Origin: Candidatus Manganitrophus noduliformans
Lineage (GTDB): Bacteria; Nitrospirota; Nitrospiria; SBBL01; Manganitrophaceae
Direction of reading: 5' to 3'
Assembly: GCF_012184425.1 (NCBI RefSeq)
Contig: NZ_VTOW01000002.1
Location: 186,001 to 250,000, forward strand
DNA length: 64,000 nt
Shown: positions 43,790 through 50,258 of the stretch, in pieces
Layout of the letters: each line of letters begins with the position of its first letter
How positions within the stretch are numbered: position 1 is the first letter of the stretch
The notes under the pieces: model-generated
What the model saw: the letters and a program-made list of their open reading frames with translations, nothing else
Databases searched by the model: none
What the model was told of the DNA's origin: nothing
Position numbers and translations under genes: made by a program

Positions 43790-43818
43790 TTGACAAGCCC
43801 CTCCCAGCGGTTTAGAAT
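43790..43818 (+). promoter_or_regulatory. Sigma-70 promoter of the proteasome operon
   Basis: TTGACA (43790-43795), a 17-base spacer and TAGAAT (43813-43818). Transcription would begin near 43825, about 30 bases before the proposed ATT start of the ATPase gene and 17 bases before its ribosome-binding site. Confidence 0.75.
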
Positions 43819-43840
43819 TTTTTATTACCCTCATTATTAA

Positions 43841-43857
43841 GGAAGGAGACCGCCATT
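43841..43857 (+). promoter_or_regulatory. Strong ribosome-binding site followed by an ATT start codon
   Basis: GGAAGGAGAC (43841-43850) lies six to seven bases before ATT (43855-43857). No ATG, GTG or TTG occurs in this frame until 43984, which itself has no Shine-Dalgarno. This decides the ATPase start. Confidence 0.65.
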
Positions 43858-45540
43858 AGCGACTCATCCAAATATTATTCCCCGCAACGGGAAACTCCGC
43901 AGGAAAAGCGCTCTCAAAGCCCGCTCCAACTGATCGACCGCATCCTTGCGTCCACCCCCCAAGAAGATCCCCGCTATTCTTTAATGAATGCGCTGCGGGG
44001 CAAGATCCTCGAAGGGGAGCTGAACCTCCAACAGGTTCAATCGGAGATCAAGAAGCTGAATCAGGTGGTGGAAAAGGTCACCGCGCCGGCCAACCGGATC
44101 GGCACCCTCCTGGGACTCCCCGCCCCCGATCTGGCGCACATCGTGGTCGGCGGGGCGGACTATTACACGAATGTTGACCCGCGCCTCAAACCGGAAGCGC
44201 TGCAGATCGGCACGCAGGTCTTGGTGAATGAAGCTTTCGTCGTCCTCCGCGCCATCGGCTATGACCGGAACGGATCGGTTCAAAAAATCACCGACCTTCT
44301 GCCGGACGGCCGGCTTCGCGTCGGGCAGGATGTCGGAGCGCAGTCGTCTCTGCTGATCCGCTCCTCCCAATTGACCGAAGAAAAACTGAAGGTCGGCGAC
44401 GAGGTCCGGATCGACGCCAGCCACCGGGTCGCCGTGGAAAAGGTCAACAACGCCCAGCGGCGGGAGTATTTCCTGGAAGAGACACCGAAGGTTTCCTGGG
44501 AAGAGATCGGCGGCCAGAAGGAGGCGATCGACGCGATCCGCAATACACTCGAGCATCCCCTCCTCTACCCCGACCTCTTCAAGAAATACGACTTCTCCCA
44601 GCCGAAGGGCTTCCTCTTATACGGTCCCCCCGGCTGCGGCAAGACGTTGATCGGGAAAGCGACCGCTTATAGCCTGGTCCAGAAGCTGAAAGATCAAGGC
44701 AACCCGCAGGTCGAAGAATTTTTCCTTCATGTAAAGGGGCCGGAGATTTTGAATATGTGGCTCGGCGAGTCGGAGCGGATGATCCGGGAGATCTTCGCGC
44801 GCGCCCGCGAAAAACGGGGGGCCGGCTACCTCCCCTTCATCTTCATCGACGAGGCGGAGTCGATCCTGGGGACGCGCCGCTCGATGCGCTCTCACAACAT
44901 CCTCAGCACCCTCGTTCCGATGTTCTGCGCCGAAATGGACGGAATCGAATCGCTCAAGGAGATGGTGATTATCCTCGCCTCCAACCGCCCCGACCTGATC
45001 GACCCGGCGGTCCTGCGCCCCGGGCGGATCGACCGGAAGATCAAAATCAATCGCCCCGACCGGACCGGCACCGAGGAGATCTTCGGCATTTACGTGACCC
45101 CGGAAATCCCCCTCGCGCCGAGTCTGATGAAAGCCCACGGCGATGATCCGGCGCAGGCGCGTCAGGCCTTGATCAAAGCGGGGGTCGATGCGATCTTTTC
45201 AAAGGGCGCAGCGCAGCAGATTCTGGAATTGCAGCTTCGGAGCAGCCGTCGAGAGATCCTCCACCGGTCGGACCTGATCAGCGGCGCCCTGATCGCGTCG
45301 ATCATCCAACGGGCCAAGGAGCGGGCGATCAAACGGACCATCAACGAAGGGGAAGAGGGAATCACGGTTGAAGACATCACCCTCGCCGTCGAAACCGAAT
45401 ACCGAGAGGGAGAGATCCTCCCCCCCAACGACATTGTCGAAGACTGGCTGAAGCTGATCGACGTCGATCCGGAGAATGTCGTCGGCCTCTCGCTGCTCGA
45501 CAAAAAGGAACGGCCCAAACCCGAGAAGCGAGTCATCTAA
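43855..45540 (+). CDS. Proteasome-associated AAA+ ATPase (ARC/Mpa type)
   Basis: 561 residues if read from ATT at 43855, or 518 from the first ATG at 43984. In order: a Ser/Gln-rich lead, a coiled-coil region (about 44-76, including 'LQQVQSEIKKLNQVVEKVT') that in Mpa binds the protein tag, OB-fold region (about 80-200), AAA+ domain with Walker A 'GPPGCGKTLIGKA' (about 257-264), pore-loop region 'EILNMWLGESERM', Walker B 'FIFIDEAESI' and arginine finger 'LRPGRIDRK'. The hexamer unfolds tagged proteins into the 20S chamber. The C-terminus is KRVI, not the GQYL/HbYX tail used by Mpa for docking. Its stop overlaps the dop start (TAATG). Confidence 0.92.
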   Translation: MSDSSKYYSPQRETPQEKRSQSPLQLIDRILASTPQEDPRYSLMNALRGKILEGELNLQQVQSEIKKLNQVVEKVTAPANRIGTLLGLPAPDLAHIVVGGADYYTNVDPRLKPEALQIGTQVLVNEAFVVLRAIGYDRNGSVQKITDLLPDGRLRVGQDVGAQSSLLIRSSQLTEEKLKVGDEVRIDASHRVAVEKVNNAQRREYFLEETPKVSWEEIGGQKEAIDAIRNTLEHPLLYPDLFKKYDFSQPKGFLLYGPPGCGKTLIGKATAYSLVQKLKDQGNPQVEEFFLHVKGPEILNMWLGESERMIREIFARAREKRGAGYLPFIFIDEAESILGTRRSMRSHNILSTLVPMFCAEMDGIESLKEMVIILASNRPDLIDPAVLRPGRIDRKIKINRPDRTGTEEIFGIYVTPEIPLAPSLMKAHGDDPAQARQALIKAGVDAIFSKGAAQQILELQLRSSRREILHRSDLISGALIASIIQRAKERAIKRTINEGEEGITVEDITLAVETEYREGEILPPNDIVEDWLKLIDVDPENVVGLSLLDKKERPKPEKRVI

Positions 45541-47042
45541 TGCTGAAGCTCTTTGGGATCGAAACCGAATATGGAATTACCCGGGAAGACTTAGAAGCGG
45601 TCGATCCGGTGGTGGAGTCGATGGAACTGGTCCGCGCCTATCTCACCCGCCCCTTTCGGCCCGGATGGGATTACAGCGGCGAAGACCCCCGGCAGGACGC
45701 CCGCGGATTCCGGGCCGATAAGCTGGCGCAGGATGAAGAAGAGGAAGCGTTCGAGAAACAAGACCGCCACCGGCCCTTCTCCTTTCACGAGATGAAGAGC
45801 GACCTCGCCCTGACCAACGGCGCCCGCTTCTACAACGACCACACCCACCCGGAGTATTCTACCCCGGAATGCCGGTCGCTTCGGGATCTCGTCATCCACG
45901 ACAAGGCGGGGGAGCGGATCGTCCAGGCCTGCGCCGACCGGCGGAACGCGGCCCTCGGGAATCCGGCGGTCCAGCTCTACAAAAACAACACCGACTTTTA
46001 CGGCCACAGCTACGGCTGCCACGATAACTATCTTCTCCCCCGATCGATCCCCTTCGACAAAATCATCCGCGATCTCACCCCGTTCCTCGTGACCCGGCAG
46101 ATTTTCGCGGGGGCGGGGAAGGTCGGGATCGAGAGCCGGGATGGATACCGGGCCGGCGTCTACCAGCTCTCGCAGCGGGCCGATTTCGTCGAAGTGGAGA
46201 TGTCGGTCGATACGATGGATCGCCGGCCGATCATCAACACGCGGGACGAGCCCCACGCCGACCGAAGTCAATATCGGCGCCTTCATCAAATTTTAGGAGA
46301 CGCCAATCTGTCGGAGACCGCCACCGCGCTGAAGGTGGGGACCACCTGGCTGACCCTTCGTCTCATCGAAATCGGCGCGGCGCCCGCGGCGGCGATTCCG
46401 GAGCCGGTCGCCGCCGTCCACGCCGTTTCGCTCGATACGACCTGCAAAAAACCGATCAAGCGGATGAATGGAAAAGAGATCTCGCCGATCGACCATCAGC
46501 GTCTCTACCTCGCCGCGGCGCAGAAGGCGTTCGGGCAGGAGGCCGATCCGGACACCCAATGGGTCCTGGCCAAGTGGGAAGAGGTCTTGAACGACCTCGA
46601 GATCGACCCGATGATGCTGACGAACCGGCTCGACTGGGTCGCCAAGAAATGGCTGCTCGAAACCTTCATGGAGGCGGAAGGGTGCGGATGGGACGACCCT
46701 CGGCTTCGCGGGCTCGATCTCGAATATCACAACCTCTCCCCCGACCGGGGGCTCTTCATCGGTCTGGAAATGGAAGGGAATATGGAACGGCTCTCCACCG
46801 AAGCGGAGATCAAGGAGGCGATGACAACTCCCCCCGCCGACACCCGCGCCGCGATCCGGGGGCTGTGCATCGAAAAATTTTATGACCAGATCCATCGAAT
46901 CCAGTGGGAGCGGGTCGTTTTTCAGAACGGCCTCTTTCATAAAACGCTGGAAATGAACAGCCTGTTCGACCCGGCCGAGATCGCCACGCTGCGAGCGCGG
47001 ATCGGAGAGGCCGCCAGCTTCAAAGAGATTTTTAATTCATAG
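45540..47042 (+). CDS. dop: Dop-like depupylase/deamidase homologue (UBact system)
   Basis: 500 residues of the carboxylate-amine ligase-like family shared by Dop and PafA. It opens 'LFGIETEYGI' and carries the Dop-specific loop 'WDYSGEDPRQDARGF', then 'NGARFYNDHTHPEYSTPEC', 'QLYKNNTDFYGHSYGCHDNY', 'PFLVTRQIFAGAGKVG' and 'QLSQRADFVEVEM'. In actinobacteria Dop deamidates Pup and removes it from substrates. Here the modifier already ends in Glu, so tag removal is the likely job. It is translationally coupled to the ATPase and lies ten bases before the UBact gene. Distinguished from the second homologue at 48855 by the Dop loop. Confidence 0.88.
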   Translation: MLKLFGIETEYGITREDLEAVDPVVESMELVRAYLTRPFRPGWDYSGEDPRQDARGFRADKLAQDEEEEAFEKQDRHRPFSFHEMKSDLALTNGARFYNDHTHPEYSTPECRSLRDLVIHDKAGERIVQACADRRNAALGNPAVQLYKNNTDFYGHSYGCHDNYLLPRSIPFDKIIRDLTPFLVTRQIFAGAGKVGIESRDGYRAGVYQLSQRADFVEVEMSVDTMDRRPIINTRDEPHADRSQYRRLHQILGDANLSETATALKVGTTWLTLRLIEIGAAPAAAIPEPVAAVHAVSLDTTCKKPIKRMNGKEISPIDHQRLYLAAAQKAFGQEADPDTQWVLAKWEEVLNDLEIDPMMLTNRLDWVAKKWLLETFMEAEGCGWDDPRLRGLDLEYHNLSPDRGLFIGLEMEGNMERLSTEAEIKEAMTTPPADTRAAIRGLCIEKFYDQIHRIQWERVVFQNGLFHKTLEMNSLFDPAEIATLRARIGEAASFKEIFNS

Positions 47043-47051
47043 GAGAAAATC

Positions 47052-47225
47052 ATGACCGAATTCATGGAACGACGGGAACGCCCGGTGAATCCGCTGGAGA
47101 AACCGCGCGAGGAGACCGGACCGAAGCGTCCCGACACCGACTCCAGCAAGGAAAATCTTTTAAAGCGGATGCGGAAGGTCGATCCGAAACAGGCGGAACG
47201 GTACCGACAAAGAACCGGAGAATAA
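47052..47225 (+). CDS. Ubiquitin-like modifier UBact
   Basis: 57 residues, too short for usual ORF cut-offs. A ribosome-binding site (AGGAGA) precedes the ATG. The N-terminal half is charged and Pro-rich, apparently disordered. The C-terminal half ('ENLLKRMRKVDPKQAERYRQ') leads to the terminal '...RQRTGE', matching the conserved end of UBact proteins reported from Nitrospirae and some other phyla, and analogous to the GGE/GGQ end of Pup. A C-terminal Glu means it can be ligated to lysines by the PafA homologue without prior deamidation. It sits between dop and prcB in the same place as pup. Confidence 0.88.
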   Translation: MTEFMERRERPVNPLEKPREETGPKRPDTDSSKENLLKRMRKVDPKQAERYRQRTGE

Positions 47226-47228
47226 CCG

Positions 47229-48047
47229 ATGCATAATGGTGACTTTTGGTCCCTTCTCAAAACCAACGGTTATAAATTAGGACCGGGAACCCTTCCGGAA
47301 GGGAGAGAGCCGGTTGAAAGCAAAATCGCCCTCACGCAAGGGACAACCATCTTTGGACTGAAATATAAAGAGGGTGTCTTGGTCGCGGGGGATCGCCGGG
47401 CGACCGCCGGAACGACGGTGATGTATGACCGGACCGACAAGGTTCTCGAGATCGACCGCCATTCGGTGATGGCGATCGCAGGGGTTCCCGCGACGGCCTT
47501 CGAGATTGCCCGCGTGATGGAGCATACCTTCAAGTATTATCGGCGCAGCCAGCTTCAGGAGCTGAGCCTCGAAGGAAAGGTCCGCGCCCTCTCGAAACTC
47601 CTCAAGGAAAATATCCCGATGGCGATTCAGGGAATCGGCGCGGTCGCCCCGATCTATGCCGCCTATGATGTGGCGCGGAAAGAGGGGAAGCTCTTTTTCT
47701 ACGACATTCTCGGCGCCGGATTCGAAGCGGTGGAGTTCACCACCTCCGGTTCCGGTTCCCCGGCCATTCGTGGAATCCTCCAGTATGAGAATCGCTGGGG
47801 GAAGCGCCCGCTGGCCGAACTCTCCGAGGAGGCGGCGATCACCCTGACGATGAGGCTCCTGGAGACGGCGGCCGAATTCGACGCCGCCACCGGCGGGAGC
47901 AACCGAGAAGCCCATCTCTACCCGGTGATCAAACTGGTCACGATGGAAGGGGTCCGAGAGATTCCTCAGAAAACACTCGAATCGCTCTATGCGCGAAACG
48001 TCGTCGGCCGCTCTACCGCGGGAGAACCGGGGCTGGGCATCGGATAA
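47229..48047 (+). CDS. prcB: 20S proteasome beta subunit
   Basis: 272 residues. A 38-residue propeptide ends in Gly before the catalytic Thr39 ('LTQGTTIFGLKY'). Counting from that Thr, Asp17 ('LVAGDRR', residue 55) and Lys33 ('TDKVLEI', residue 71) fall at the expected positions, and the C-terminal 'GGSNREAHLYPVIKLVT' is typical. After autoprocessing it gives the N-terminal-nucleophile threonine protease of the 20S core. It begins four bases after the UBact stop and 27 bases before prcA. Confidence 0.96.
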   Translation: MHNGDFWSLLKTNGYKLGPGTLPEGREPVESKIALTQGTTIFGLKYKEGVLVAGDRRATAGTTVMYDRTDKVLEIDRHSVMAIAGVPATAFEIARVMEHTFKYYRRSQLQELSLEGKVRALSKLLKENIPMAIQGIGAVAPIYAAYDVARKEGKLFFYDILGAGFEAVEFTTSGSGSPAIRGILQYENRWGKRPLAELSEEAAITLTMRLLETAAEFDAATGGSNREAHLYPVIKLVTMEGVREIPQKTLESLYARNVVGRSTAGEPGLGIG

Positions 48048-48074
48048 CATCTGACTTCTGAAAGGAAGAGACAA

Positions 48075-48854
48075 ATGGTTTATGACGAGCCTTACCGATG
48101 GGTCGAGGCGGTTCGAAACCGGCGCGACTATCTTGAGGAACAACTTTCCGCCGGCAGCCCGATCGTCGCCCTCCCCTATGAAAACGGCGTCCTGATGGCG
48201 ACCCTCGGCGCCGGCACGTCGAAGCTGTATGAAGTCTATGACCAGATCGCATTCGGCGGGATCGGCCATCCGGCCGATCTGGAGAAACTTCGGAATGTCG
48301 TCCTCGATGCCGCCCATGTGGAAGGGTTCAATCGCTCCCCCGTCGATGTCACTGTCCGCCGGCTGATGAAGTTTATTTTGGCGCCGATGGTCAAGCAGGC
48401 CTTCGAAGAGGTGCTTCACGCTCCCTACATCGCGAAGATCGTGATGGCGGAGATCGGCATCCTCTCCGCCAAGCCGCTCTTCTTCCACCTCAATTATGAC
48501 GGGGTCTTCGAAGAGGAGGAACGCGGGGTGGTCCTGGCGCCGACGGCGCCGATGAGCGAGCGGATGGCGGCTTTTCTCAATGCCGCCGGAGAGACCCACT
48601 CCCTATCACTCAAGGAGGCCCTGCAGATCGCCCTGAGAACCTGGGCGGTCTCTCAACTTCCGGCCGATCTGGAGGCGGAAAAAGAGGCCGGCGCCCCCCC
48701 GTCGCCAAAGGAGCTCGATCCGTTGTTGAAGCGGTCGCTCGAATCGCACACCCTCGAAGCGGCCCTTCTTGACCGGACCCAGCCGGGGAGTTCGAAATAC
48801 CGGACCCTCTCTCATGACGAAATCGAACAGGCGCTGAAGGGGTGGTTGAAATAG
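48075..48854 (+). CDS. prcA: 20S proteasome alpha subunit
   Basis: 259 residues with the alpha-type N-terminus 'DEPYRWVEAVRNRRDYLEE' and the Ntn-fold strands 'SPIVALPYENGVLMATLG' and 'SKLYEVYDQIAFGGIGHPADLEKLR'. There is no propeptide Thr, so it is the structural ring subunit that gates the chamber and docks the ATPase. A clear ribosome-binding site (AAGGAAGA) lies upstream. The C-terminal 60 residues form a long charged, probably helical tail. Its stop codon is followed directly by the pafA ATG. Confidence 0.93.
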   Translation: MVYDEPYRWVEAVRNRRDYLEEQLSAGSPIVALPYENGVLMATLGAGTSKLYEVYDQIAFGGIGHPADLEKLRNVVLDAAHVEGFNRSPVDVTVRRLMKFILAPMVKQAFEEVLHAPYIAKIVMAEIGILSAKPLFFHLNYDGVFEEEERGVVLAPTAPMSERMAAFLNAAGETHSLSLKEALQIALRTWAVSQLPADLEAEKEAGAPPSPKELDPLLKRSLESHTLEAALLDRTQPGSSKYRTLSHDEIEQALKGWLK

Positions 48855-50258
48855 ATGCTGTCACGAATTATGGGTCTCGAAACCGAATACGGCTGTCTGG
48901 TGAATCAAGAGCGCCCGAACGATTCGCCCGAGCGGATCGCGTACCGAATCAAAGAGACGATCTTCAAAAAGAAAAAACTCGGGTTGATCGACCTGCACCA
49001 TCGGGCCCACGACGAGCCGCCGGGAAACGGCGGATTTCTTCTCAACGGCGGCCGGATCTACATCGACATGGGACATCTGGAGTATGCTTCTCCGGAGTGC
49101 CTCTCCCTCACCGACCTGCTCGCCTACGATCGGGCGGGAGACCGAATCTTGCAGGAGGCGGTCGAAGCCTTGGGGCTGGGAGAACGGGTCTCGATCATCA
49201 AAAACAATGTCGATCATGAAACCGGCGCCACCTTCGGATCGCATGAAAATTACCTCGTCGCCCGCGACTTCCCCTTTTCCTACGACGGCCTGGGCCAGCT
49301 GATCCCCTTCCTGGTGACCCGCCAGATCTTCACCGGGGCGGGGCGGGTCGGCGCGCATCTGGTCCCCGACGGCTGGGTCGCTCTGGGCGAGCGGGCGCTG
49401 CCGCAGATTGACTTTCAGATCTCGCAGCGGGCCGACCACATCGTCAACGATTTCTACCAGTGGGTCCAGTTCAACCGCGCCATCATCAACACCCGCGACG
49501 AGCCGCTGGCCGATCCGAACCGGTATCGGCGCATCCACCTCCTCCTCGGCGACTCCAACATGCTCGAATATGCCACCGCGCTGAAACTCGGCACCACCTC
49601 CGTCATGCTCTCCCTGATCGAGGAAGGGGCGGTTCCGGACGATCTGGCGCTGGCGGACGCGGTTCTCGATTTAAGGCGGATCTCGCGCGATCCGGAGCGG
49701 CGATGGATTGTGACCCTTCAGAACGGAAAACGGATTTCCGCCGTCGAGCTTCAATCCCTTCTTCAACAAGAAGCGGAACGAACCCTGTCTGGAAAGGATG
49801 ATCAGACCGATTGGATCATCTCGGAATGGGGAAAGACGCTGGAGGCGCTCGCGATCGACCCGGAGCGTCTTGTCGGAAAGATCGACTGGATCTCCAAACG
49901 GTGGCTTCTTGAATCGTTTCGAGAGGCGGAGGGGGTCGATTGGCAGGACCCCTGGATGGCCAGCCTCGATCTGGAGTACCATAATCTCAACCGATCCCGC
50001 GGACTCGCCGTTGCCTTGGAAGAAGAAGGAAAGGCCCTCCGGCGGACCACCGACGACGCCGTCGATCTGGCGGTGGAATGTCCCCCCCGGAATACGCGCG
50101 CTTCCGCGCGGGGAGAATTGATCCGATCTCTCCTGGAGCGGCAAACCCCTTATGTGATCAACTGGTCGAGTTTTTATATCGAGGGGAAAAAACCTTTCTC
50201 GATGGAAGATCCGTTTAAGACTTATCGGACCGAAACCGAGGCGCATTTTTTGGGGTAA
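48855..50258 (+). CDS. pafA: PafA-like modifier ligase (UBact ligase)
   Basis: 467 residues, homologous to the Dop-like protein but without the Dop loop. It opens 'RIMGLETEYGCLVNQER', then 'NGGRIYIDMGHLEYASPEC', 'IIKNNVDHETGATFGSHENY', 'PFLVTRQIFTGAGRVG' and 'QISQRADHIVNDFYQW', with the conserved 'INTRDEPLADPNRYRR'. The ATP/Mg site acidic residues (E in 'ETEYG', D/E around 'HLEYASPE') are present. It would attach the C-terminal Glu of the modifier to substrate lysines. It is the last gene of the operon and faces a convergent receiver gene with a gap of only four bases. Confidence 0.9.
   Translation: MLSRIMGLETEYGCLVNQERPNDSPERIAYRIKETIFKKKKLGLIDLHHRAHDEPPGNGGFLLNGGRIYIDMGHLEYASPECLSLTDLLAYDRAGDRILQEAVEALGLGERVSIIKNNVDHETGATFGSHENYLVARDFPFSYDGLGQLIPFLVTRQIFTGAGRVGAHLVPDGWVALGERALPQIDFQISQRADHIVNDFYQWVQFNRAIINTRDEPLADPNRYRRIHLLLGDSNMLEYATALKLGTTSVMLSLIEEGAVPDDLALADAVLDLRRISRDPERRWIVTLQNGKRISAVELQSLLQQEAERTLSGKDDQTDWIISEWGKTLEALAIDPERLVGKIDWISKRWLLESFREAEGVDWQDPWMASLDLEYHNLNRSRGLAVALEEEGKALRRTTDDAVDLAVECPPRNTRASARGELIRSLLERQTPYVINWSSFYIEGKKPFSMEDPFKTYRTETEAHFLG

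Follow-up and report, generated by a model that had tools for sequence, protein, structure and literature searches.

The window analysed here, a stretch of 64,000 nucleotides from Candidatus Manganitrophus noduliformans (Nitrospirota), whose genus oxidises manganese, carries an intact six-gene UBact-proteasome operon (43790-50258) which is the second of two complete parallel tagging-proteasome systems in this genome, the other being a Pup-proteasome operon on a different contig. As judged from sequence, the two systems are probably kept apart by an inverted charge of the tags and their enzymes and by different docking ends of the two ATPases. It is the presence of a second complete system in one cell, with features suggesting separation, that is noteworthy, and not the operon itself, which is one of many in Nitrospirota and of an already known type. 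The high value that a preliminary description of this DNA had placed on a complete and intact locus was overrated, since the same operon is found in many Nitrospirota and UBact is found in 71 of 197 of their genomes.

The UBact operon and its promoter

The six genes were found in the order ATPase, Dop-like, UBact, PrcB, PrcA and PafA-like, and the family models fit all of them, which bears out the preliminary description of a complete operon in this order in a non-actinobacterium. It had also given overlaps or gaps of at most about 30 bases, and the measured distances are, in order, -1, 9, 3, 27, and 0 bases. The features are as follows.

43790..43818, plus strand: promoter TTGACA-17-TAGAAT, matching the consensus at 11 of 12 positions, the top site of the scan
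43840..43848, plus strand: Shine-Dalgarno sequence AGGAAGGAG, read from the sequence, preceding the AUU start
43855..45540, plus strand: proteasomal AAA ATPase (ARC/Mpa-like), 561 aa, AUU start, ending in RVI; Pfam AAA and two proteasomal OB domains; TIGR03689 457 bits, cut-off 505
45540..47042, plus strand: putative Dop-like deconjugase/deamidase, 500 aa, long Dop-loop; PF03136 550 bits; TIGR03688 482.8 against 492.3; PDB 4b0r E=1.6e-117
47052..47225, plus strand: UBact, ubiquitin-like tag of 57 aa ending in RTGE; PF20513 E=2.5e-18; NF033388 E=7.3e-20; alignment of relatives
47229..48047, plus strand: PrcB, 20S beta subunit, 272 aa, propeptide of 38 aa, Thr39 nucleophile; PF00227 E=3.5e-28; TIGR03690 168 bits, cut-off 192
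48075..48854, plus strand: PrcA, 20S alpha subunit, 259 aa, divergent; TIGR03691 E=9.5e-22
48855..50258, plus strand: putative PafA-like UBact ligase, 467 aa, without Dop-loop, with its own type of alpha-loop; PF03136 453 bits; TIGR03686 340 bits against 551

The single promoter proposed ahead of the operon was upheld by relatives. Its hexamers and spacing are identical 5' of the orthologous ATPase gene in five loci (L032, L064, L066, L068, and L069), a near-identical promoter is present at the same place in L071 and L077, and the hexamers are fixed among relatives although the flanking DNA has diverged. Among named records, Candidatus Manganitrophus sp. GAC4 is the closest, with 98% protein identity. 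Proteasomes go unmentioned in the published comparative genomics of the Manganitrophus family, and a literature search for experiments on UBact, within whose reach the primary UBact paper did not fall, found none.

Start of the ATPase gene

The open reading frame list places the start of the ATPase gene at ATG 43984, which on the evidence had to be corrected to ATT 43855. Between 43984 and the next in-frame stop upstream the open frame has no ATG, GTG, or TTG, the ATT comes after AGGAAGGAG, and the SDSS... encoded behind it lines up with the MSD... that begins at an ATG in Nitrospirota relatives. When the first 43 codons were compared with those of a species with 85% identity, the changes were mostly at third positions (dN 0.20, dS 1.48) and therefore these codons are translated; in that species, translation from the first canonical start codon would cut into a conserved motif or leave it out. 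A standard gene caller would thus omit the first 43 residues of the ATPase. ATT or ATC at the start place is shared by several genera; it was seen in four genomes of Manganitrophus as well as in L077, L067, L070, and L071 (the AUU/AUC loci being the window, L064, L065, L066, L067, L070, L071, and L077), but L067, L070, and L077 have further start codons upstream and these three cases are less certain, whereas L068, L069, and the Nitrospira loci have ATG.

It has been shown, with sigR of Streptomyces as the worked case, that initiation factor 3 represses non-canonical starts (PMC5472188). A regulatory role is what we infer for the AUU start of the UBact ATPase gene: it would keep the synthesis of the ATPase low and probably dependent on initiation factor 3. 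In the same genome infC (L134, G000:C1:1496959-1497453) has an apparent ATC start after AAGGAGG. Close to the 3' end of the GAC4 ATPase gene (L065 / L032) a run of C is one C shorter than in the window and shifts the frame, perhaps through a homopolymer error in the assembly.

Tag, proteasome subunits and enzymes

The identification of the 57-residue reading frame as UBact held when a profile search was run, as it clears both curated UBact models, PF20513 with 66.0 bits (cut-off 27.8) and NF033388 with 71.0 bits (cut-off 35). The Pup model had no match to it up to E=10, while the true Pup of the same genome scored 77.7 bits, and the UBact family was found in none of 14 control genomes. The UBact tags of relatives end in RTGE or RTGQ, and the tail Y-x-Q-[KR]-x-G-[EQ] is common to UBact and Pup tags. 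A GE remnant on lysines had been suggested for proteomics; because UBact ends in R-TGE, however, trypsin would leave TGE (+287.11 Da) on the lysine. Pup would leave a different remnant, GGE (+243.09 Da), and both sets of targets could thus be read in one proteome. A weak second UBact match of 26 bits, below the cut-off and with no proteasome genes nearby, lies at G147:C1:1039919-1040017 (L128).

Direct reading of the PrcB translation confirmed Thr39, Asp55, and Lys71 at the places of Thr1, Asp17, and Lys33, and Thr39 follows QG, the end of the propeptide. PrcA is weakly but clearly matched by the sequence model as a bacterial alpha subunit. Its structure predicted from an alignment of 18 sequences had moderate confidence (pTM 0.65) and its best matches were mycobacterial and Rhodococcus proteasome subunits, at E=4e-7 and with low TM-scores; a fold of PrcA predicted from the single sequence was discarded (pLDDT 39). 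In addition to both PrcB, the PrcA of the Pup system, and HslV, the genome of the window has a fifth and weak proteasome-fold match at G000:C6:37711-37959 (L092), E=6.9e-5.

The Dop-like enzyme narrowly missed the curated Dop model, but it retains both the Dop-loop and the catalytic Asp, as well as the alpha-loop Thr that in Dop holds the last residue of the tag (PMC8599861; Dop residues were compared also according to PMC7947786). Reversible tagging, which had been deduced from the presence of both ligase and Dop homologues, is thus a fair inference. The assignment of the PafA-like gene fared less evenly. That it is present, intact, and retains the catalytic Asp stood, whereas its assignment as a ligase is weaker: the PafA and Dop models score it almost equally (340 and 338 bits), its alpha-loop is unlike that of PafA, and the trees place it beside the UBact Dop and not beside PafA. 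This alpha-loop, HIVNDFYQWVQFNR, has His at the PafA position and is otherwise of a conserved type of its own; it lacks two Thr which the enzymes of the Pup system have in common and which matter in PafA (PMC7947786). We therefore call the product of the 48855 gene a putative UBact ligase.

From what is known of the family, this PafA-like enzyme would use ATP to join the gamma-carboxylate of the last Glu of UBact to lysines of target proteins, and deamidation is not needed because UBact already ends in Glu here. The ATPase would then recruit the tagged protein and, docked through its -VI end, feed it into the PrcA/PrcB core of the same operon, and the Dop-like enzyme would take UBact off its targets.

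A second system in the same genome

Searches of the genome with PF03136, PF00227, and PF05639 found the second operon on contig C1, which is not the contig of the UBact operon.

L090 10152-16517 (G000:C1:1350151-1356516): Pup-proteasome operon with Mpa, Dop, Pup, PrcB, PrcA, and PafA

The gene order is the same in both operons, and the Pup operon would do with Pup what the other does with UBact. All six of its proteins score above the curated Pup-system cut-offs, whereas the five partners of UBact are all below those of TIGR03686, 03688, 03689, 03690, and 03691. Identity between the two systems is 37% for the ATPase, 44% for Dop, 35% for PrcB, 25% for PrcA, and 38% for PafA.

The genome of the window is in 22 contigs with a contamination estimate of 4.6%, as would suit an artefact of assembly or binning that had brought the two systems together. 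Both systems are present, however, in four Manganitrophus genomes, and they lie on a single chromosome in GAC4 (G003) and in another relative (G005); contamination as the origin of the second operon was ruled out on this ground, and an artefact of any such kind has next to no likelihood.

Among 197 Nitrospirota genomes, UBact was found by the tag model in 71, Pup in 93, and both in 69, although these genomes are related and the co-occurrence is given as a description only. Of the two UBact genomes in which Pup was not matched, one is a draft and the other is closed. The latter (L121, G074), of 2.6 Mb, has a UBact operon and is the only complete UBact-only case seen. A UBact genome usually has four genes of the Pup_ligase family, and most Pup-only genomes have two. 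The Pup-proteasome operon of Nitrospira is intact except for pup itself, which is found tens to hundreds of kilobases from it (L097-L101, L108, L109, and L113 vs L114-L120).

Probable separation of the two systems

The last 45 residues of the tag have a charge of +3 to +6 in UBact and of -8 to -2 in Pup. When Dop and PafA were compared within each genome, the UBact-side enzymes were the more acidic ones in 14 of 14 genomes, the difference being roughly 2 charges per 100 residues; charges were counted over whole proteins, and the genomes are related, so that these are not 14 independent events. No such shift was seen in the ATPase or in PrcB. PrcA too is more acidic on the UBact side in most genomes, though contact with the tag is not required of it. 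Dop and PafA have several of their most charge-shifted columns in common, which is what residues of a shared tag groove would show. Charge-shifted positions are 376, 377, 408, and 409 in AcDop numbering. A charge inversion mirroring that of the tag was sought in the coiled coil of the ATPase and was not seen. Charge could thus separate the two systems, the UBact tag being basic and its enzymes more acidic, the Pup tag acidic and its enzymes less so.

The docking end of the ATPase may separate them as well. In Mycobacterium this end is GQYL (PMC8755798). A motif of this type was sought at the C-terminus of the window ATPase and is absent, the protein ending in RVI. In the aligned relatives the UBact ATPases end in -VI, -II, -IV, -VV, or -IE, those of Pup have GHYL or a sequence close to it at this place, and the ends are conserved inside each system. 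Taken together, these signs make the UBact and Pup systems look insulated from each other.

The missing GQYL-type end could also be taken to mean that UBact marks proteins for some fate other than degradation, as in corynebacteria, which have pupylation without a proteasome, and the ATPases of proteasome-less actinobacteria likewise have no interaction motif (PMC3511204). In the window, however, prcB and prcA are intact in the same operon with Thr39, Asp55, and Lys71 present, and the new C-terminal end of the ATPase is itself conserved, so that tagging without degradation is very improbable. Ordinary redundancy, by which the two operons are cross-reacting versions of one pathway and their differences are neutral, has more in its favour, since gene order, catalytic residues, and the tail of the tag are common to both systems. 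Against it are the facts that most UBact genomes keep both systems together, that the charge shift has the same direction in every genome compared and spares the ATPase and PrcB, and that the docking ends are conserved per system, and we consider redundancy unlikely. We therefore prefer two systems that are kept apart. With two tags, ligases, deconjugases, ATPases, and 20S cores per cell they offer a natural experiment on what determines the specificity of a tag.

Origin of the ligase and deconjugase pair

In the trees of PrcA, PrcB, the ATPase, and Dop/PafA, the UBact and Pup groups are separate. The UBact Dop and PafA-like enzymes group together with support of 99/99 and 100/99.7, and of 99/98 when charged residues were masked; a shared adaptation to the basic tag could add to this grouping. 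Forcing the orthology with PafA cost 20, 31, and 13 log units with p-AU of 0.087, 0.012, and 0.116. With such mixed tests (p 0.012-0.116), a duplication separate from that of the Pup enzymes is favoured as the origin of the pair but is not established. A Colwellbacteria homologue (L063) was tried as the root of the Dop/PafA tree and dropped, its branch being too long for a trustworthy root. If it is true that ligase and deconjugase split twice, this would be a second case of one enzyme turned into two opposite ones.

The widest form of this reading is that many Nitrospirota would have two mutually insulated tagging-proteasome systems, with an inverted charge code and differing docking ends, whose UBact ligase and deconjugase arose by a duplication of their own and not from the PafA and Dop of Pup. 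Taken as a whole it is tentative, and we lean somewhat against it.

Comparison with known systems

Lehmann et al. (2017, doi 10.1016/j.bbrc.2017.01.037, as cited in PMC12751074) reportedly described clusters of UBact-proteasome genes in Gram-negative phyla. The tag family and the gene content are the same in these clusters and in the window, and the order is the same in Nitrospira loci, but the window genes are more tightly packed than those of Nitrospira, and the AUU start of the ATPase gene is common only to nearby families in the set checked. With the actinobacterial Pup-proteasome (Pup, PafA, Dop, Mpa/ARC, and PrcBA) the window operon shares gene order, catalytic residues, and the tail Y-x-Q-[KR]-x-G-[EQ] of the tag. 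It differs in that the tag is unmatched by the Pup model and inverted in charge, the five partners fall below the curated cut-offs, and the GQYL docking end is absent. The closest precedent for a double system is Leptospirillum ferrooxidans, for which a figure legend in a 2012 review (PMC3511204, Fig. 2) reports the whole system in two copies with the same gene context and very different sequences, the second tag being without GGE. That legend concerns one genome and does not name UBact, whereas here the double system is found in most of the sampled UBact-bearing Nitrospirota, and the two copies in L. ferrooxidans are most likely the same UBact/Pup pair.
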